Source: Paragemmobacter amnigenus
GTDB taxonomy: Bacteria > Pseudomonadota > Alphaproteobacteria > Rhodobacterales > Rhodobacteraceae
Assembly (NCBI RefSeq): GCF_009908265.2
Contig: NZ_JAAATX020000002.1
Span: 248,001-312,000, forward strand
DNA length: 64,000 nucleotides
Direction of reading: 5' to 3'
Position numbers and translations under genes: made by a program. The notes under the pieces were generated by a model, which worked only from the letters and a program-made list of their open reading frames with translations, had not been told where the DNA came from and ran no database searches. Shown here in pieces: positions 56,195 to 64,000 of the stretch. Each line of letters begins with the position of its first letter. Position 1 is the first letter of the stretch.

Positions 56195-57820
56195 ATGTCC
56201 AACGCATCGCTCGGCCCGACGGGCCATGTCGACAGTTTCGCGCGTGACAACCTGCCGCCTGCCGGCCAATGGCCCGATTTGCGGGTGGAGGGTTTCGACT
56301 ATCCCGACTGGCTGAACGCGGGGGTGGAACTGTCCGACCGTATGGTCGAGCGCGGCTTCGGCGATCATGTGGCGCTGATCGGCAATGGCCGGTCGCGCAC
56401 TTACAAGGAGATGACCGACTGGTCCAACCGCATCGCCCATGCGCTGGTCGAGGATTACGGGGTGAAACCCGGCAACCGTGTGCTGATCCGGTCGGCCAAC
56501 AACCCCGCGATGGTGGCCTGCTGGCTGGCCGCGACCAAGGCGGGGGCGGTGGTGGTCAACACCATGCCCATGCTGCGCGCGGGCGAGTTGGGAAAGATCG
56601 TCGACAAGGCGCAGATCACCCACGCCCTCTGCGACACCCGCCTGATGGAGGAACTGGTCGCCTGCCAGAAGGGATCCGCCTTCCTGAAAACGGTCGTGGG
56701 CTTTGACGGCACGGCGAACCATGACGCAGAACTGGACCGCATCGCCCTGAAGAAGCCCGTGAAATTCACCCCGCCACCCACGGGCCGCGATGACGTGGCG
56801 CTTCTGGGCTTCACCAGCGGCACCACGGGCGAGCCCAAGGCCACGATGCATTTCCACCGCGACCTGCTTATCATTGCGGACGGCTACGCGCGCGAGGTGC
56901 TGGGGGTGACGCCCGAGGATGTCTTCGTGGGCTCTCCGCCCTTGGCCTTCACCTTCGGCCTTGGCGGGCTTGCCATATTCCCCCTGCGCTTCGGTGCGGC
57001 GGCGGCGCTTCTGGAACAGGCCAGCCCGCCGAACATGGTGCAGATCATCGAGGAGCACCGCGCGACCGTCTGCTTCACCGCGCCGACCGCCTATCGCGTC
57101 ATGCTCAAGGCGATGGAAGAGGGCGCCGACCTGTCGTCGCTGCGCGCCGCCGTCAGCGCGGGCGAAACCCTGCCCGCTCCGGTCTACGAGGAATGGATGG
57201 CCAGGACCGGCAAGCCCATGCTCGATGGCATCGGCGCGACCGAGATGCTGCACATCTTCATCACCAACCGCTTCGACGACCACCACCCCGCCTGCACCGG
57301 CCGCCCCGTCACGGGATACGAGGCGCGCATCGTGGGCGAGGATATGGAGGAACTGCCGCGGGGCGAGGTCGGGCGGCTGGCGGTGCGCGGCCCCACCGGC
57401 TGCCGTTACATGGCAGATGACCGGCAGACGAAATATGTCCGCGACGGCTGGAACCTGACCGGCGACAGCTTCTGGCAGGACGAGGAGGGGCGCTTCCACT
57501 TTGCCGCCCGCTCGGACGACATGATCATCTCTTCAGGCTACAACATCGCGGGGCCCGAGGTGGAGGCGGCGCTCCTGTCCCATCCCGCAGTGCTGGAATG
57601 TGCCGTGGTGGGCACCCCGGACGAGGATCGCGGCCAGATCGTCGAGGCGCATGTGGTTCTGGCCGCAGGGCAGACGGGCGACGCGCTGATGGTCAAGCTG
57701 TTGCAGGATCATGTGAAAAAGGTCATTGCCCCCTACAAGTATCCCCGCCGCGTGGTCTTCACCGAGGCCCTGCCCAAGACGCAGACGGGCAAGATCCAGC
57801 GGTTCCGCCTGCGGACCTGA
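56195..57820 (+). CDS. Aryl-CoA ligase (benzoate/2-aminobenzoate-CoA ligase type)
   Basis: 541 residues, ANL superfamily. ATP motif GFTSGTTGEPKATMHFHRD, GIGATEMLHIF (A5), the GWNLTGDSFWQDEEGRFHF hinge (A7/A8) and the C-terminal catalytic Lys in LPKTQTGKIQRF. The overall pattern resembles 2-aminobenzoate- and benzoate-CoA ligases, so an aromatic or heteroaromatic carboxylate is the likely substrate. ATG 56195 follows GAGAGGAAGA. It closes the operon begun by the NicX-like gene. Confidence 0.85.
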   Translation: MSNASLGPTGHVDSFARDNLPPAGQWPDLRVEGFDYPDWLNAGVELSDRMVERGFGDHVALIGNGRSRTYKEMTDWSNRIAHALVEDYGVKPGNRVLIRSANNPAMVACWLAATKAGAVVVNTMPMLRAGELGKIVDKAQITHALCDTRLMEELVACQKGSAFLKTVVGFDGTANHDAELDRIALKKPVKFTPPPTGRDDVALLGFTSGTTGEPKATMHFHRDLLIIADGYAREVLGVTPEDVFVGSPPLAFTFGLGGLAIFPLRFGAAAALLEQASPPNMVQIIEEHRATVCFTAPTAYRVMLKAMEEGADLSSLRAAVSAGETLPAPVYEEWMARTGKPMLDGIGATEMLHIFITNRFDDHHPACTGRPVTGYEARIVGEDMEELPRGEVGRLAVRGPTGCRYMADDRQTKYVRDGWNLTGDSFWQDEEGRFHFAARSDDMIISSGYNIAGPEVEAALLSHPAVLECAVVGTPDEDRGQIVEAHVVLAAGQTGDALMVKLLQDHVKKVIAPYKYPRRVVFTEALPKTQTGKIQRFRLRT

Positions 57821-57895
57821 CACGGGACGGGACTTCCGCCTGCCGCCGCTTCGGTCCATGCTGGGCGACGGCGGGCACGGTGGCGGGGGGTAGTC

Positions 57896-58138
57896 TTGGC
57901 GGCGGAACGGTTCATCATCCGGGGCGATCTTGGCGCCGCGACCTTCCTTCCCTGGGTCCGTCGGCACATGGGCAAGCTTGGCCTGACGGGCGAACTGGGC
58001 CAGAGCGGCGAGGCGCTGGTGGAGTTGCGGGTCGAAGGCCCGCCCGACCTGATCGACGCGCTGGAGATGGGCGTGTCGCTGGGCCCGATCGAGGCCTGGG
58101 TCGAGTCGATAGAGCGCGCCCCCCTCAACAGCCTTTAG
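57896..58138 (+). CDS. Acylphosphatase-like small protein lacking catalytic residues
   Basis: 80 residues from TTG 57896 (GGGGGG about 6 bases upstream). It aligns with acylphosphatases across its length (RFIIRGDLGAATFLPWVRRHMGKLGLTGEL, then ELRVEGPPDLIDALEMG, GPIEAWVESIE). The catalytic Arg of the GxxGVxFR loop is Leu, and the Asn of the next strand is replaced by Gly/Gln. It may be a binding protein rather than an enzyme. It lies between the ligase gene and the Rieske operon. Confidence 0.55.
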   Translation: MAAERFIIRGDLGAATFLPWVRRHMGKLGLTGELGQSGEALVELRVEGPPDLIDALEMGVSLGPIEAWVESIERAPLNSL

Positions 58139-58162
58139 GGGCCGACCCCTCCGAATTCATTG

Positions 58163-58175
58163 ATCACATTGTGAT
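58163..58175. promoter_or_regulatory. 13-bp palindrome before the split-Rieske operon
   Basis: ATCACA-T-TGTGAT is a perfect odd palindrome 137 bp before the Rieske gene ATG 58313. The flanking DNA is AT-richer than elsewhere (GAATTCATTGATCACATTGTGATGCTTTAT region), so a promoter is likely here. The binding protein is not encoded next to it; a GntR-type regulator would fit such a site. Confidence 0.45.
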
Positions 58176-58312
58176 GCTTTATCGGGCAGGCCGGTCTAGG
58201 ATTTGGGCAGGCGACCCGATTCCGTGCCGCAAACCCGCTCCTGACCCGCGAGGGCAGGACAAGGGGGCGGTGGCGGTTCTAGCTTCGGGTCCGTATGGGG
58301 TGGGAAGGCAGG

Positions 58313-58936
58313 ATGTCGATCATGTGGACGCCGGTCGCGCTGTCACGGGATGTGCCGCCGCTTGTGGTGCTGCCCGTGGTGGCGGGGGGCCGCGAACTGG
58401 CACTGTGGCGCAGCGCGTCGGGACGGATCGCGGCATGGGCGGACCGCTGCCCGCATCGCGGGATGCGCCTGTCGCACGGTTTCGTGCGGGGCGAGGCTTT
58501 GTCCTGCATCTATCACGGCTGGAGCTATGGCGCGGCGGGCAACTGCCTGCGCATCCCTGCCCATCCCGATCTGGAACCGCCCGAGACGATCCGCGTGGCC
58601 GTCCATGTCGCGGCCGAGGCGGGCGGGCTGATCTGGGTTGCCCCCTCTGCACCCGAGGCGCCCCCGCCCGATCCGGGCGCGCTGCAACCGCTGCGGTCGC
58701 TGACGGTCGAGGCGGGCACGGCGGCGGTGCTGTCTTTGGCCGGTCTGGCGGGTGACACCCTTGCGCGCGGCCACCTTGCGGGGGTCGAGGTCACGGTGGC
58801 CGTCCAGCCGATCGGTCCGGCGCGCTGTGCGCTGCATGTGCTGACCGGTGCGGCGGGGGCGGCAGAGCGGATCGCCCTGTCGCGCGAACTGGACGCACTG
58901 CGGCGGCGGGCGGAAGCGGGGGAGATGGCGGCATGA
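58313..58936 (+). CDS. Stand-alone Rieske [2Fe-2S] protein without catalytic iron site
   Basis: 207 residues from ATG 58313 (AAGG 4 bases upstream; ATG 58295 and 58322 are alternatives). Residues about 1-110 are a Rieske domain of the VanA/Ndm oxygenase kind: Cys46-x-His48, then 16 residues, then Cys65-x2-His68 (CIYHGWSYG). The C-terminal 95 residues keep a short strand-rich stretch like the end of an oxygenase catalytic domain (VTVAVQPIGPARCALHVL) but no D-x2-H-x4-H site. It probably carries electrons to the next gene product; its stop overlaps that gene by ATGA. Confidence 0.85.
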   Translation: MSIMWTPVALSRDVPPLVVLPVVAGGRELALWRSASGRIAAWADRCPHRGMRLSHGFVRGEALSCIYHGWSYGAAGNCLRIPAHPDLEPPETIRVAVHVAAEAGGLIWVAPSAPEAPPPDPGALQPLRSLTVEAGTAAVLSLAGLAGDTLARGHLAGVEVTVAVQPIGPARCALHVLTGAAGAAERIALSRELDALRRRAEAGEMAA

Positions 58937-59778
58937 CAAGCGAAGCGATCCGCAACGAATGGTATCCCGTGGCGCTGGCCAGCCAGCTTGGCCCCGAAGG
59001 CCGCGACACGCGCCTTCTGGGCGAACCCATCCGCGTCGACTGGGCCGCCCAAGGCCGACCCCGCGTCCGTGCGGCGGACGGGCGCGAGATGGCCACCCGC
59101 CTGCGCTATGGCCACATCTGGGCCTGCCCCGGCACCCCCTCGCGCGAGCTGTTCGACATCCCCGAGGCCGACCAGCCCGGCCGCCGTCTGGTCGACGTGG
59201 GCGTCGTCCGCGTGAAATGCTCGCCCCTGCGCGCGGTGGAAAACTTCCTCGACATCGCGCATTTCCCCTTTGTCCACACAGACATCCTTGGCGCCGAACC
59301 GCATACCGAGGTGGGCAAGTACGACGTCGCCATCCGCGAGGAGGTGGACGAGGTCTGGGCGACCAAGGTGCATTTCTACCAGCCGCAGGCCGCCAAATCG
59401 GCGGCGGGCGGGATCACCACGGAATACATGTACCGCGTGCCCGCGCCGACCGTGTCGATCCTCTACAAGACCTGCCCTCCACGCCCCGGCGAATGGGATG
59501 TCATCACGCTCTTCGTCCAACCGCTGGAAGAAAACCTGTGCGAGGTCTGGCCGTGGATGGCGCTGTTTGATGACGAAACCCCGATGACCGACCTCATCCA
59601 CTTCCAGCAGACCATCTTCCTGCAGGACCGGTCCATCCTCGAAAACCAGCTGCCGCGCCTCCTGCCGCTGGATCCGGGGATGGAGATCCCGACGCGGGCG
59701 GACCTCACCTCCGTCGCCTATCGCCGCTGGCTCAAGCGGCGGGGCTATACCTATGGCGCGCAACTGGTGGCGGCATGA
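58933..59778 (+). CDS. Rieske-less mononuclear iron oxygenase (NdmC-like)
   Basis: 281 residues. The N-terminus RNEWYPVALASQLG looks like a Rieske oxygenase start, but the stretch that should hold CxH and CxxH is absent, jumping to TRLRYGHIWACPG. The catalytic domain is intact: N104-x2-D107-x2-H110-x4-H115 (ENFLDIAHFPFVH) and D232 in FLQDRSILENQ give the 2-His-1-Asp iron site with bridging Asp107. A lone catalytic domain served by a separate Rieske protein is the arrangement of NdmC in caffeine N7-demethylation. The GST-like gene follows with ATGA overlap. Confidence 0.82.
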   Translation: MTSEAIRNEWYPVALASQLGPEGRDTRLLGEPIRVDWAAQGRPRVRAADGREMATRLRYGHIWACPGTPSRELFDIPEADQPGRRLVDVGVVRVKCSPLRAVENFLDIAHFPFVHTDILGAEPHTEVGKYDVAIREEVDEVWATKVHFYQPQAAKSAAGGITTEYMYRVPAPTVSILYKTCPPRPGEWDVITLFVQPLEENLCEVWPWMALFDDETPMTDLIHFQQTIFLQDRSILENQLPRLLPLDPGMEIPTRADLTSVAYRRWLKRRGYTYGAQLVAA

Positions 59779-60422
59779 TCCTTTACGACTACGTCCTCAG
59801 CCCCGATTGCTACAAGGTCCGGCTCCTTGCCGCGCTGACGGGGGCCAAGATCACCCTGCGGGCGGTGGATTTCCACCCCGGCGCCGAACACCGCAAGCCG
59901 GAGTTCCTGAAGATCAACCCCGCCGGAACCATTCCGGTGATGGAGGAGGACGGTCTGGTCCTGACCGATTCCTCGGCGATCCTGACCTATGTCGCGGCCA
60001 AGGCGGGGCCTGAATGGCTGGGCGATGACGACGCGCGGATGCGCGCGCGGGTGGCGCAATGGCTCGCCTTCGCGCAGCGCCTGTCGGCCAGCATCGGCAA
60101 GGCGCGCACCCATGACATGCTGCAAAAGCCCGCCGACATAGACGCCTGCCGCGCTGGCGGCATCCAGTGCCTGCGCGAGATCGAGGCGGCGCTGGTCGAA
60201 CAGGATATCCTTGGCGCGCGCTTCCTCGCGGGCGACCGCCCGACGCTGGCCGACATCGCCTGCTTCCCCCATTCCATGCTCGCCCCCGATGGCGGCATCA
60301 GCGTGGATGCCTACCCCGCGATCCGCCTATGGACCCGCCGCATCCGCGCCCTTCCGGGCTTCGTCGAAATGCCGGGCATCCACCGCCTGCATGACCTGAA
60401 ACCCGAACCCGCAAAGGCATGA
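59775..60422 (+). CDS. Glutathione S-transferase-like protein, possible NdmE counterpart
   Basis: 215 residues. Thioredoxin-like N-domain (about 1-78: ILYDYVLSPDCYKVRLLAALTG, NPAGTIPVMEEDGLVLTDSSAIL) and helical C-domain with ADRPTLADIACFPH-type GST signature (GDRPTLADIACFPHSM). It overlaps the oxygenase and amidohydrolase genes by 4 bp each. In the NdmCDE demethylase a GST-like protein (NdmE) is needed for assembly rather than catalysis; the gene order suggests the same structural role here. Confidence 0.82.
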   Translation: MILYDYVLSPDCYKVRLLAALTGAKITLRAVDFHPGAEHRKPEFLKINPAGTIPVMEEDGLVLTDSSAILTYVAAKAGPEWLGDDDARMRARVAQWLAFAQRLSASIGKARTHDMLQKPADIDACRAGGIQCLREIEAALVEQDILGARFLAGDRPTLADIACFPHSMLAPDGGISVDAYPAIRLWTRRIRALPGFVEMPGIHRLHDLKPEPAKA

Positions 60423-61795
60423 CCATGGCCGGTTACCTGTTCAAGGGCTGCGCGGCAGTCGTCACCGATGCGGGGGCGGCGGATGGCGTGCTGCGCGACG
60501 TGGATCTGCTGGTGGAGGGCCCGGCCATCACCGCCATCGGCGCGGGCCTTTCCGCGCCGCAGGGGACCGAGGTGATCGATGCCCGTGGCATGTTCCTCTA
60601 TCCCGGTCTGGTGAACACCCATCACCACTTCTTCCAGACCTTCGTGCGCAACCGCGCCAACCTTGACTGGACGAAGCTGTCTGTCATCGAATGGCTGGAC
60701 CTGATCTATCCCATCTTCTCGCGCCTGACGGAGGACTGCTTCTACCACTCCTCCCTCACCGCCATGGCGGAACTGGCCAAGCATGGCTGCACCACCGCCT
60801 TTGACCACCAGTATAACTTCCCCCGCCATGCCGGAAAACGCATCGTCGACCGGCAGTTTCAGGCGGCGGCGAAGATCGGCCTGCGCTTCCATGCGGGACG
60901 CGGCGGGAACACCCTGCCGAAATCCCAAGGATCGACGATCCCGGACGAGATGCTGGAATCCACCGATGAATTCATCGCTGATTGCGCGCGCCTGATCGAC
61001 ACCTATCACGATGCGGGCCGCTTCAGCATGGGGCAGGTCGTGGTGTCGCCCTGCCAACCGGTGAACTGCCATCTGGACACATTCACCGAATCCGTCGCAC
61101 TGGCGCGTGACAAAGGCGTCTTCCTGCACAGCCATGTGGGCGAAGGCGAGAGCGAGGTCATCAAGGCCCGCCACGGGATGCGGACGGTCGACTATCTGGA
61201 AAAGATCGGCTTCTGCGGCCCCGATACCTTTTACGCCCATTGCTGGGAACTGACCGATGCCGAATTGCGCCAGTTGGCAGCCAGCGGCACGGGCGTCGCC
61301 CATTGCCCCGAACCCGTCTATCTGGTGGGGGCAGAGGTGACGGACATTCCCGCCATGGCCGCGTATGGCGTGCGCATCGGGCTGGGCTGCGACGGGGCGG
61401 CGTCGAACGACAATTCCAACCTGATGCACTGCATCCATTCGGCCTACATGCTGCAATGCCTCGTCGCGTCGAAACGCGCCCATCCCGTGCCCGACCCGCG
61501 GGATTTCCTCGCCTATACCACCACCGGCGGCGCGGCGCTGCTGGGGCGGTCCGACATCGGGCGTCTGGCCCCCGGCATGGCGGCAGACCTTTTCGCTATC
61601 GACACCCGCAAGATGGATTACGTGGGCACCCGCCACGACCCTGCCAGCCTGATCGCCAAGGTGGGCGTCGGCAGCCCCGTTGACCTGACCATGGTCAATG
61701 GCCGCATCGTCTGGGCCAAGGGCGAATTCCCCGGGCTGGACGAGGCCGAAATGGCCGCCGAGGCCGAGGCGGCGCTGGCAAAGATCGACTTCTAA
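60419..61795 (+). CDS. ATZ/TRZ-family amidohydrolase (purine-type deaminase)
   Basis: 458 residues (MAGYLF at 60425 is an alternative start). Metal-dependent hydrolase of the AtzA/TrzA/SsnA/8-oxoguanine deaminase group: LVNTHHHFFQTF (HxH metal site), FLHSHVGEGESE, FYAHCWEL and GLGCDGAASNDNSNLM with the catalytic Asp. Such enzymes remove an amino or substituted amino group from purines, pyrimidines or triazines. With a BMP importer next to it and an NdmC-like oxygenase before it, deamination of a methylated guanine is a reasonable guess. Confidence 0.85.
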   Translation: MTMAGYLFKGCAAVVTDAGAADGVLRDVDLLVEGPAITAIGAGLSAPQGTEVIDARGMFLYPGLVNTHHHFFQTFVRNRANLDWTKLSVIEWLDLIYPIFSRLTEDCFYHSSLTAMAELAKHGCTTAFDHQYNFPRHAGKRIVDRQFQAAAKIGLRFHAGRGGNTLPKSQGSTIPDEMLESTDEFIADCARLIDTYHDAGRFSMGQVVVSPCQPVNCHLDTFTESVALARDKGVFLHSHVGEGESEVIKARHGMRTVDYLEKIGFCGPDTFYAHCWELTDAELRQLAASGTGVAHCPEPVYLVGAEVTDIPAMAAYGVRIGLGCDGAASNDNSNLMHCIHSAYMLQCLVASKRAHPVPDPRDFLAYTTTGGAALLGRSDIGRLAPGMAADLFAIDTRKMDYVGTRHDPASLIAKVGVGSPVDLTMVNGRIVWAKGEFPGLDEAEMAAEAEAALAKIDF

Positions 61796-61825
61796 CCAAC
61801 AATAACAGACCAACAGGAGAGACAT

Positions 61826-62920
61826 ATGAACATGATCGCAAGACGGACCTTCCTGCAGACATCGGCCCTTGCCGCCGTTGCTGCCGCCATCGGCGCGCGC
61901 GGGGCCTCCGCGCAGGAACCGCTGGGCATCGCGCTGGTGCTGCCTTCGCCCCTTGGCGATGTGGGCTGGTCGCATACGCTGGCGGCGGGGCTTGACCCGG
62001 TGAAGGCCGCCTATGGCGATGCGGTCAAGATCACGCTGCTGGAAAACATCGCCGAAGGCCCCGATGCCGACCGCATCATGAACAAGGCGGTGGCCGACGG
62101 GAACAAGGTCCTGATCGCGGGCTCCTTCGGCTATCAGAACGGCGCGATGCAGATTGCCAAGCGCGACCCGTCGGTGACGGTGCTGCACGCCTCGGGCTTC
62201 ATGGTGGCCCCCAACTTCTCGCCCTTCGCGGCCAAGTATTTCCAGGGCACCTACCTGCTGGGCATGGCGGCGGCGGCGCTGTCCAAGACGGGCAAGCTCG
62301 GCTCCGTCTCGGCCTTCGCGATTCCGGAACTCATCACTTCGGTCAATGCCTTCACGCTGGGCGCGCAGGCGGTCAATCCGGATGTGGAAGTGTCGGTCGT
62401 CTGGGTGAACACCTGGTTCGACCCCGCCAAGGAGCAAGAGGCTGCCAAGGCCCTGATCGCGCAGGGCTGCGACGTGATCTTCTCGAACGCGCAGGACACG
62501 CCCTCGGTCATCGCGGCCTGCGAAGAGGCGGGGGTCTACGCCTTCAACCTCAACTCCTCGATGAAGTCCTACGCACCGACCAGATACCTCGGCTGCGTCG
62601 CCACCGACTGGTCGCCCTTCTTCAAGGCGTCCGTCGATGCGCATCTGGCGGGCAATTTCGTGGGCGCCAACGCCTTCCTCGGCGTGGCCGATCAGGTGGT
62701 CGAGGTGGTGGACTGGTCGCCCGACATTCCGGCCGACATCATGGCCAGGATCACCGAGACCGAGGCGAAGATCGCCGACGGCAGCTTTACCCCCTTCACC
62801 GGCCCGATCACCAAGGCCGATGACAGCGAGGGTGTGGCCGCAGGCGCATCCATGGGGGATGCCGAGATCGTGGCGATGGACTGGCACGTGAAGGGCGTCG
62901 TGACGCCGCTGCCGCAGTAA
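61826..62920 (+). CDS. BMP-family ABC transporter substrate-binding protein
   Basis: 364 residues. A twin-arginine-like leader (R6-R7-T-F-L, hydrophobic to about 22) ends in ASA29/Q30, so export to the periplasm is expected. The mature part has the Bmp/Med fold: IALVLPSPLGDVGWSHTLAAGLDPV, ILIAGSFGYQ, YFQGTYLLGMAAA, GCDVIFSNAQDTPSVI. BMP proteins bind nucleosides, purines and related compounds. The gene follows the amidohydrolase by 30 bp with AGGAGAG before ATG. Confidence 0.9.
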   Translation: MNMIARRTFLQTSALAAVAAAIGARGASAQEPLGIALVLPSPLGDVGWSHTLAAGLDPVKAAYGDAVKITLLENIAEGPDADRIMNKAVADGNKVLIAGSFGYQNGAMQIAKRDPSVTVLHASGFMVAPNFSPFAAKYFQGTYLLGMAAAALSKTGKLGSVSAFAIPELITSVNAFTLGAQAVNPDVEVSVVWVNTWFDPAKEQEAAKALIAQGCDVIFSNAQDTPSVIAACEEAGVYAFNLNSSMKSYAPTRYLGCVATDWSPFFKASVDAHLAGNFVGANAFLGVADQVVEVVDWSPDIPADIMARITETEAKIADGSFTPFTGPITKADDSEGVAAGASMGDAEIVAMDWHVKGVVTPLPQ

Positions 62921-62929
62921 GGGCGGCCC

Positions 62930-64000
62930 ATGTCCGCGCCGCTTCTGTCCCTGCGGGGGATGACCAAGGGCTATGGTCCGGTCAAGGCCAATCAGGCCAT
63001 CGATCTGGACGTGGCCCCCAATTCCATCCACGCCATCCTGGGCGAGAACGGCGCGGGCAAATCCACGCTGATGAAACTGATCTACGGGGTCGAGGCGCCG
63101 GACGCGGGCGAGGTGTTCTGGAACGGCGCCCCCGTCCACCTGCATTCCCCGGGCGAGGCGCGGCGTCTGGGCATCGGGATGGTGTTCCAGCACTTCTCGC
63201 TGTTCGAGACGCTGACGGTGGTGGAAAACATCTCGCTCATCGTGGCGGGCACGAAGGCCACGCTGGCCGCGCGCATCCGCGAACTGGGCCGCGACTTCGG
63301 GCTGGAGGTGGACCCCTTCGCCGAGGTCCACGCCCTGTCGGTCGGTGAACGGCAAAGGGTGGAGATCATCCGCTGCCTGATGACGGAACCGAAGCTTCTC
63401 ATTCTGGACGAACCGACATCGGTTCTGCCGCCGCAGGCGGTGGGGTTGCTGTTCGAAACACTGCGGCGGCTGCGCGATCGCGGGGTGTCGATCCTCTTCA
63501 TCTCGCACAAGCTGGACGAGATTCAGGCCATTTGCGACCGCGCGACGATCCTGCGGGCGGGACGCGTGACGGGCAATGTCGACCCGCGCGAGCATGACGC
63601 GCATGATCTGGCGCGCATGATGATCGGGCGCGACATGCCCCCGCCGCTGCACCCCGATCCGGTCGAGCCGGGCGAGGTCAGGCTGGAGCTTTCGGGGCTG
63701 GACCACGCGCCGGATGATCCTTTCGGCGTGGCGTTGCAGGGGGTGAGCCTGTCTCTGCGCGCGGGTGAAGTTCTGGGAATCGCCGGAATTTCCGGCAATG
63801 GACAGTCCGAGCTGTCGCGACTGATTTCCGGCGAGGTGCGCCTGTCCGAGGCGCGGCGGGATGACGTCCGGATGCTTGGTCAGGGGGTCGGCCATCTGGG
63901 CCCCGGCGCGCGGCGGGCGCTGGGCTTCGCCTTTGTCCCCGAGGAACGGCTGGGACGCGGGGCGGTGCCCGAGATGACGCTGTCGGACAACAGCCTGCTG
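62930..64000 (+). CDS. ABC transporter ATP-binding protein of the BMP/nucleoside type (runs off the window)
   Basis: 357 codons are present from ATG 62930 and the frame is still open at the window edge. Domain 1: Walker A GENGAGKST at 38-46, signature LSVGERQR (the LSVGE form typical of nucleoside and sugar duplicated-cassette ATPases), Walker B LLILDEPTS. Domain 2 begins about residue 245, with GIAGISGNGQSEL in place of a canonical Walker A, and FVPEERLGRG. It starts 9 bp after the BMP gene. The permease genes should follow outside the window. Confidence 0.9.
   Translation, partial: MSAPLLSLRGMTKGYGPVKANQAIDLDVAPNSIHAILGENGAGKSTLMKLIYGVEAPDAGEVFWNGAPVHLHSPGEARRLGIGMVFQHFSLFETLTVVENISLIVAGTKATLAARIRELGRDFGLEVDPFAEVHALSVGERQRVEIIRCLMTEPKLLILDEPTSVLPPQAVGLLFETLRRLRDRGVSILFISHKLDEIQAICDRATILRAGRVTGNVDPREHDAHDLARMMIGRDMPPPLHPDPVEPGEVRLELSGLDHAPDDPFGVALQGVSLSLRAGEVLGIAGISGNGQSELSRLISGEVRLSEARRDDVRMLGQGVGHLGPGARRALGFAFVPEERLGRGAVPEMTLSDNSLL

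Follow-up and report, generated by a model that had tools for sequence, protein, structure and literature searches.

The operon described here begins near the end of a 64,000-nucleotide stretch of the Paragemmobacter amnigenus genome (the window: positions 248001-312000 of contig C2, in a genome of 4.14 Mb) and runs on past it. Our best explanation of its gene content, which we hold with little more than even confidence, is that it serves the uptake of a methylguanine, with 7-methylguanine from RNA as the likeliest, which is deaminated, then N-demethylated by a two-chain Rieske oxygenase and so enters ordinary purine catabolism. 7-Methylguanine occurs in mRNA caps, tRNA and rRNA. If the explanation is true, it accounts for the recycling of this methylated base in many rhizobia and rhodobacters.

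A conserved operon with a split Rieske oxygenase

The genes are listed in Table 1. The first-pass annotation, made from the letters of the window, had read a Rieske protein, a Rieske-less oxygenase, a glutathione S-transferase (GST)-like protein, a deaminase and a BMP importer here, and open reading frame (ORF) and domain searches confirmed all of these, as well as the overlaps claimed at the first three junctions, which are real overlaps of 4 nt. It had started the operon at the Rieske gene, whereas the conserved operon begins one gene earlier, with the acylphosphatase-like ORF. The suggestion to look past position 64000 for permeases was borne out, since the rest of the ATPase gene and two permease genes were found there. 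For the Rieske ORF, a second in-frame ATG lies at 58295.

Table 1. Genes of the operon (positions in the window unless preceded by C2)
Feature	Position	Strand	Basis or remark
Acylphosphatase-like protein, 80 aa, first operon gene	57896..58138	+	Family profile against solved acylphosphatases
Stand-alone Rieske [2Fe-2S] protein, 207 aa	58313..58936	+	PF00355, E 2e-20
NdmC-like Rieske-less non-haem iron oxygenase	58933..59778	+	PF19112 (VanA_C), E 5e-19
GST-like protein, NdmE-like	59775..60422	+	40% identity to L101 NdmE
Amidohydrolase-type deaminase	60419..61795	+	NF006055, 388.7 bits, below cut-off
BMP/PnrA-family substrate-binding protein, AtzT-like	61826..62920	+	PF02608, E 4e-39
ABC importer ATPase	62930..64000, runs on to C2:312441	+	ORF and domain search
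Two permeases past the window end	C2:312438-313517 and C2:313514-314425		After the ATPase

For comparison we used loci L016-L095, the best 80 of 531 confirmed oxygenase matches in named genomes, which are consequently near relatives. The nine genes (acylphosphatase-like, Rieske, oxygenase, GST, deaminase, binding protein, ATPase and two permeases) lie in the same order on one strand in 64 of the 80 loci, and we therefore rejected chance co-location. Among the remaining loci, five end at contig edges (L016, L020, L082, L086, L090), and in L024 the contig stops inside the deaminase gene, with importer-like matches upstream. The short acylphosphatase-like ORF was not found by BLAST in L017, L062 and L073; L033 and L053 are without the deaminase, and L048 and L094 without deaminase and importer, in the stretch examined; L087, L091 and L095 have a different gene order and a different deaminase. 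The 4-nt overlap of the Rieske and oxygenase genes recurs in 58 of 79 loci and that of the oxygenase and GST genes in 64 of 80, while the GST and deaminase genes overlap by 4 nt in just 15 of 72, with a gap of at most 10 nt in 71 of the 72. Plasmids of Rhizobium, Agrobacterium, Shinella and Qingshengfaniella carry the same operon, and R. johnstonii 3841 is one of its hosts. Of 385 genomes drawn from the class, 8 (the window's own genome included) gave a match of NdmC type with an E value of 1e-30 or better.

The oxygenase has VanA_C as its sole Pfam match at E 0.001, and neither a Rieske model nor [2Fe-2S] cluster motifs were detected in it. Residues D107, H110, H115 and D232 are invariant in an alignment of 42 rows (the window and 41 of the 79 distinct L016-L095 rows); we take them to be the bridging aspartate and the iron ligands, in agreement with the aligned NdmA segments. 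The closest oxygenases among the matches listed come from metagenome-assembled genomes of Rhodobacteraceae (L016, 84% over the whole protein; L090, 92% over residues 73-281).

Kinship was examined in a tree of 54 rows, which took in 23 of the 79 distinct rows, L007, 22 plasmid rows and 7 rows from further genomes, and left aside a partial sequence (L122) and a fragment (L124). Two Ndm clusters served as references, namely the caffeine-type cluster on Pseudomonas putida plasmid pTmex (L101) and that of Paraburkholderia caffeinilytica (L102); the labels NdmA to NdmE on their proteins were assigned in this analysis from gene order and a figure legend of PMC4408171. With a long-branch warning for the full-length rows and L103a, the tree separates 44 Rieske-less NdmC-type rows, the L101 and L102 NdmC included, from 10 full-length oxygenases, which include NdmA/B and HpxD, on a branch with 100/99 support. 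The window's clade holds 26 rows (support 100/100), and the NdmC-type rows outside it are 42-55% identical to the window oxygenase. The oxygenase thus sits with NdmC; the first-pass annotation had named a grouping with ring-hydroxylating dioxygenases unrelated to Ndm proteins as speaking against its proposal. The alignments proposed there gave 45% identity of the oxygenase to L101 NdmC and 40% of the GST to L101 NdmE.

The metal cluster that the oxygenase lacks would be supplied by the neighbouring Rieske protein, in which C46/H48 and C65/H68 are invariant (49 rows: the window and 48 of the 79). This protein aligns to the N-terminal part of NdmD-like fusions, with 40.5% identity to L101 NdmD over residues 4-118, and is, unlike NdmD, not fused to a reductase. 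Both window chains have SxtT/GxtA (SxtDIOX) as their best PDB matches, by sequence and by predicted fold; those enzymes are, however, single chains with both metal centres. The oxygenase model (pLDDT 80.8, below 50 at residues 118-122, 153-158 and 275-281) aligns to them at a template modelling (TM) score of 0.79-0.84, and its residues 7-48 align with the beginning of the Rieske profile at an hhalign probability of 79-88, with the cluster-binding segment absent. The Rieske chain extends about 90 residues beyond the Rieske domain, and its C-terminal part matches the catalytic-domain profile weakly (hhalign E 0.006-0.008, probability 5-6). Its AF2 model (pLDDT 94.8) nevertheless aligns in Foldseek to complete SxtT/GxtA chains with a query TM score of 0.68-0.77 over 255-277 columns including gaps. 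By our own arithmetic, the roughly 115 of 207 residues that make up the Rieske domain would by themselves yield a score no higher than about 0.56. In the predicted model, the C-terminal part of the Rieske chain therefore looks like a remnant catalytic domain, and each chain seems to retain a shrunken copy of the domain it has lost, the oxygenase a cluster-free Rieske remnant and the Rieske chain a catalytic one.

These remnants accord better with two full-length paralogues, each having lost the centre that the other kept, than with a single oxygenase gene cut in two, which we think unlikely because the oxygenase has its own N-terminal Rieske remnant and split pairs occur throughout the family. 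Known Rieske oxygenases are C3 oligomers in which the cluster and the iron of adjacent subunits lie about 12 Å apart, and NdmA/NdmB is a hetero-hexamer (PMC12445004). Two chains with complementary remnants would be a natural test of inter-subunit electron transfer in these enzymes. Within the same operons, the Rieske chain, at 40-62% identity to that of the window, has diverged far more than the iron chain, at 67-84%.

The GST-like protein, encoded beside the oxygenase, is presumed to be its structural partner. The acylphosphatase-like protein is the sole PF00708 match in the genome, scoring below the Pfam cut-off, and a profile of its family reaches E 1.7e-6 with the best-matching solved acylphosphatase. 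A catalytic arginine and asparagine are essential in acylphosphatases, and the Arg and Asn of the GVGFR and WVRN segments are not kept in the window's family, in which G10, W20, G48 and L62-G63-P64 are invariant (28 rows). Judged by these residues the protein is probably not an active acylphosphatase, and a structural role is our guess. By profile search, such a protein accompanies the split oxygenase in the window's clade, including L128, in L096, L097 and L104 and in Komagataeibacter (L103); no match came from L129-L134 or from the stretches with an NdmD fusion (L009-L012, L101 and L102). We also considered this gene as a strict partner of the stand-alone Rieske gene and rejected the idea, as the profile matched nothing at E 10 in L129-L132 and L134, whose Rieske genes do not carry the NdmD reductase part. 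A fuller proposal joins these points: a dedicated pathway for RNA-derived 7-methylguanine, served by a hetero-oligomeric Rieske oxygenase that arose from two paralogues losing opposite centres, with a cluster-free Rieske remnant left in the iron chain and an iron-free catalytic remnant in the Rieske chain, and that recruited as structural subunits the GST-like protein along with a catalytically dead acylphosphatase-like one. As a whole we offer it tentatively, as more probably wrong than right.

Importer, deaminase and the proposed pathway

The binding protein has AtzT (6pi5) as its best PDB match (E 8.9e-79, 125 of 342 aligned columns identical). AtzT was co-purified with guanine, which it binds with a dissociation constant of about 110 nM, as against 2.2 µM for 2-hydroxyatrazine (PMC6834077). 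The nearest known counterparts of the window protein are the purine-binding BMP proteins AtzT and PDB 3s99. Of the nine guanine-site residues named for AtzT, six are identical in the window protein (Ser97, Phe98, Thr139, Glu165, Trp194, Asn218) and Tyr45 is replaced by Trp. At these seven columns the window's residue is present in 80-88 of 88 rows. The window protein differs from AtzT at Asn169 and Asn220, and in being encoded with a putative N-demethylase.

The deaminase has its best NCBIfam match in NF006055, the 8-oxoguanine deaminase equivalog, with 388.7 bits against a cut-off of 532; against the guanine deaminase equivalog TIGR02967 it scores 124.9 bits, the cut-off being 375.4. It is thus related to the 8-oxoguanine deaminase equivalog and lies outside it. 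Its closest solved structures are 3hpa and 7ww2, it belongs to the same amidohydrolase branch as 8-oxoguanine deaminase (PRK08203/NF006055), and further PDB matches include triazine hydrolases and hydroxydechloroatrazine ethylaminohydrolase. The motifs that we take to form its metal site are present, but its loop HCPEPV stands against HCPCSN or HCPSAN in 8-oxoguanine deaminases, and the CxP loop differs too. Elsewhere in the genome, contig C11 encodes a guanine deaminase (505.9 bits) with, about 2.5 kb from it, a true 8-oxoguanine deaminase (685.8 bits), and C6 encodes a true xanthine dehydrogenase (XDH; 1204.1 bits). Because the genome has ordinary enzymes for guanine and 8-oxoguanine, the third deaminase, that of the operon, is not needed for either. 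As far as can be read from sequence, both the binding protein and the deaminase belong to families that point to guanine-type bases; the first-pass annotation had made its proposal depend on a purine preference in these two.

Guanine deaminases above the TIGR02967 cut-off accompany the split oxygenase in six clusters (L087, L091, L095, L097, L104, L134), replacing the window-type deaminase in all but L104, where the enzyme is present beside a true 8-oxoguanine deaminase. In three loci that branch early within the window's clade (L087, L091, L095) it follows the binding protein (412.9-433.5 bits); in Rhizobium rhododendri (L097, 419.2 bits) and R. grahamii (L104, 422.5 bits) it adjoins the oxygenase or is close to it; and in genome G334 (L134), whose oxygenase branches with the Sinorhizobium meliloti row L126, it comes after the BMP permeases, facing the GST, Rieske and oxygenase genes (404.3 bits). 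These cluster-type enzymes are 58-67% identical in the pairs compared, and that of L095 is 30% identical to the ordinary guanine deaminase of G334. The G334 region (L133/L134) also encodes both XDH subunits, this second, ordinary guanine deaminase and a urate oxidase. Of the three amidohydrolases encoded close to the oxygenase in R. grahamii, one scores above the cut-off for 8-oxoguanine deaminase and another above that for guanine deaminase. A xanthine permease and a ureidoglycine aminohydrolase are encoded near L095, and an annotated allantoinase near the operon in Qingshengfaniella. Across the related loci such purine neighbours are the exception: clustering of the flanking ORFs gave one ABC-ATPase-like cluster in 31 loci and no other in more than 12 (the clusters were not run against family libraries), and BLAST with the purine genes adjoining L095 and L094 found few other loci.

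In the pathway we propose, the BMP binding protein and ABC importer would take up methylguanine, as the guanine site of the relative AtzT suggests, and the operon's own deaminase would turn it into methylxanthine. The two-chain N-demethylase, by its homology to NdmC and NdmE, would then remove the methyl group as formaldehyde, and the resulting xanthine would go to the xanthine dehydrogenase encoded elsewhere in the genome. One chain would hold the [2Fe-2S] cluster and the other the mononuclear iron, with the GST-like and perhaps the acylphosphatase-like protein joining them, which is a guess. Deamination before demethylation would be the simplest order, because NdmCDE acts on 7-methylxanthine. 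Electrons would have to come from outside, since no reductase is encoded in the operon; NdmD-reductase-like matches in the genome lie on contigs C1 and C3 only (C1:441851-442654, 35%; C3:286105-287073, 29%, PaaE-like).

Several observations weigh against this pathway. In the binding protein, AtzT Asn169 has become Ser, and Asn220 Asp or Gln with a one-residue insertion. Loci L009, L012, L087, L091, L095, L097, L102 and L104 vary at several guanine-site columns, and five of these (L087, L091, L095, L097, L104) are among those that carry guanine deaminases. No deaminase was found in the operon of four of the 80 loci (L033, L048, L053, L094), where the best matches elsewhere in the genome are 26-38% identical; nor did BLAST show one at the NdmC-type stretch in five of six further genomes, with G334 as the exception (the L135 stretch being just 5 kb). 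One of the window's own clade, G318 (L128), showed neither deaminase nor importer. The operon has no formaldehyde genes, unlike L101 and L102, and is missing a reductase. Lastly, the N7 specificity of NdmC may not hold at 45% identity. Of the first-pass proposal, that the operon imports a purine such as 7-methylguanine, deaminates it and removes the N7-methyl group, the kinship with NdmC and the guanine-type families stand, while the substrate and the methyl position are matters that we infer from sequence comparison and the deaminase is not found in every locus.

Alternative substrates

The same pathway logic could serve another methylated or alkylated purine or a pterin, such as 1-, 3- or N2-methylguanine, a methylated pterin or a mixture. 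The NdmC-type rows outside the window's clade, just 42-55% identical, leave room for this, as do the two NdmC-type rows in some genomes (L009, L103, G295, G334), the three amidohydrolases of L104 and the conserved loops of the window deaminase, unlike those of 8-oxoguanine deaminases. 7-Methylguanine is, however, a common natural methylguanine, and the NdmC that has been described acts on 7-methylxanthine (PMC4408171). We consider a different alkylated base possible, if rather unlikely. Salvage of 8-oxoguanine, with the oxygenase acting on a later intermediate, would account for the best NCBIfam match of the deaminase and for the true 8-oxoguanine deaminase in the L104 cluster. That match falls short of its cut-off, however, and the window's genome has its true enzyme near the guanine deaminase on C11. 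Urate, the product of 8-oxoguanine deamination, would moreover need no demethylase, and we find this use of the operon improbable.

Two further possibilities dispense with methylpurines. In a molybdenum-free guanine route, the deaminase would yield xanthine and the split Rieske oxygenase would hydroxylate it to urate in the manner of HpxDE; HpxD, an annotated xanthine hydroxylase subunit, matches the oxygenase at 28.6%. The HpxD rows sit with the full-length oxygenases in the tree, though, and ordinary XDH is encoded both in the window's genome and in the L134 cluster, so we regard such a route as quite improbable. Degradation of an N-alkyl s-triazine or related heterocycle is suggested by the PDB matches to AtzT, triazine hydrolases and hydroxydechloroatrazine ethylaminohydrolase, and by a cyanuric acid hydrolase gene about 12 kb downstream in R. 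johnstonii. Against it stand the guanine deaminases in related clusters and the preference of AtzT itself for guanine (110 nM) over 2-hydroxyatrazine (2.2 µM; PMC6834077), and of all the substrates considered we would be most surprised by a triazine.

Relation to known systems and minor observations

NdmCDE is described as a 7-methylxanthine N7-demethylase of Pseudomonas putida CBB5, with NdmC acting on 7-methylxanthine and a GST in the split oxygenase (PMC4408171); with this earlier description, a split Rieske oxygenase with a GST is of a kind already known. The window operon resembles it in the Rieske-less oxygenase, the Rieske domain on another polypeptide and the GST-like partner, at 40-45% identity to the L101 homologues. 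It differs in having an unfused Rieske protein, its own deaminase and an acylphosphatase-like protein, and in being without a reductase, NdmA/NdmB and formaldehyde genes. The first-pass annotation had also taken the separate Rieske protein and the BMP transporter as distinguishing marks. These do not set the operon apart, because both occur with other ndm-type genes: stand-alone Rieske genes are found in Komagataeibacter from kombucha (L103) and in further alphaproteobacteria, and BMP importer genes accompany ndmCDE-type genes in Sinorhizobium and lie 8-12 kb away from them in Paraburkholderia caffeinilytica. Among the literature matches listed, neither an operon of this unfused-Rieske type that brings along a deaminase and an importer nor a link of such an operon to guanine was found, and a full-text search of open-access literature returned nothing joining 7-methylguanine with a Rieske demethylase or with use as sole nitrogen source. 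According to the 2015 review, a further 18 organisms, of which many belong to Sinorhizobium and Mesorhizobium, have clusters homologous to NdmCDE to which it assigns no function (PMC4408171); the 7-methylguanine pathway, if true, suggests one for such clusters.

Other unfused or altered arrangements were seen along the way. The Komagataeibacter nataicola plasmid of L103, from a tea culture, carries two split Rieske/oxygenase/GST sets and a separate VanB-type reductase beside NdmA-like genes, and in P. putida 1290 (L013) the ndmD-like gene is annotated as three ORFs and is apparently broken.

Upstream of and between the first genes, a riboswitch search of 57750-58400 gave one match, to a microRNA family and far below the gathering score. 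A perfect palindrome, ATCACATTGTGAT (ATCACA-T-TGTGAT), lies at 58163-58175 between the acylphosphatase-like and Rieske genes; with at most two mismatches it recurs in 6 of 80 such gaps, against 1 of 80 shuffled ones, and being hardly conserved it was rejected as a conserved operator. Downstream, about 8.5 kb past the permeases, an XDH-like molybdenum enzyme is encoded on the minus strand (C2:322910-326409) by a large subunit with fused 2Fe-2S domains and an FAD subunit; apart from the true XDH on C6, the genome has three paralogues of the XDH family, of which this is one. On plasmid pRL10 of R. johnstonii (L006), the operon is followed by a cluster for cyanuric acid hydrolase that includes a BMP importer of its own; downstream of the operon, this importer starts at about 7 kb and atzD lies at about 12 kb. 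In Leptolyngbya boryana plasmid pLBX (L105), a BMP-type importer is directly followed by a full-length SxtT-like Rieske oxygenase.

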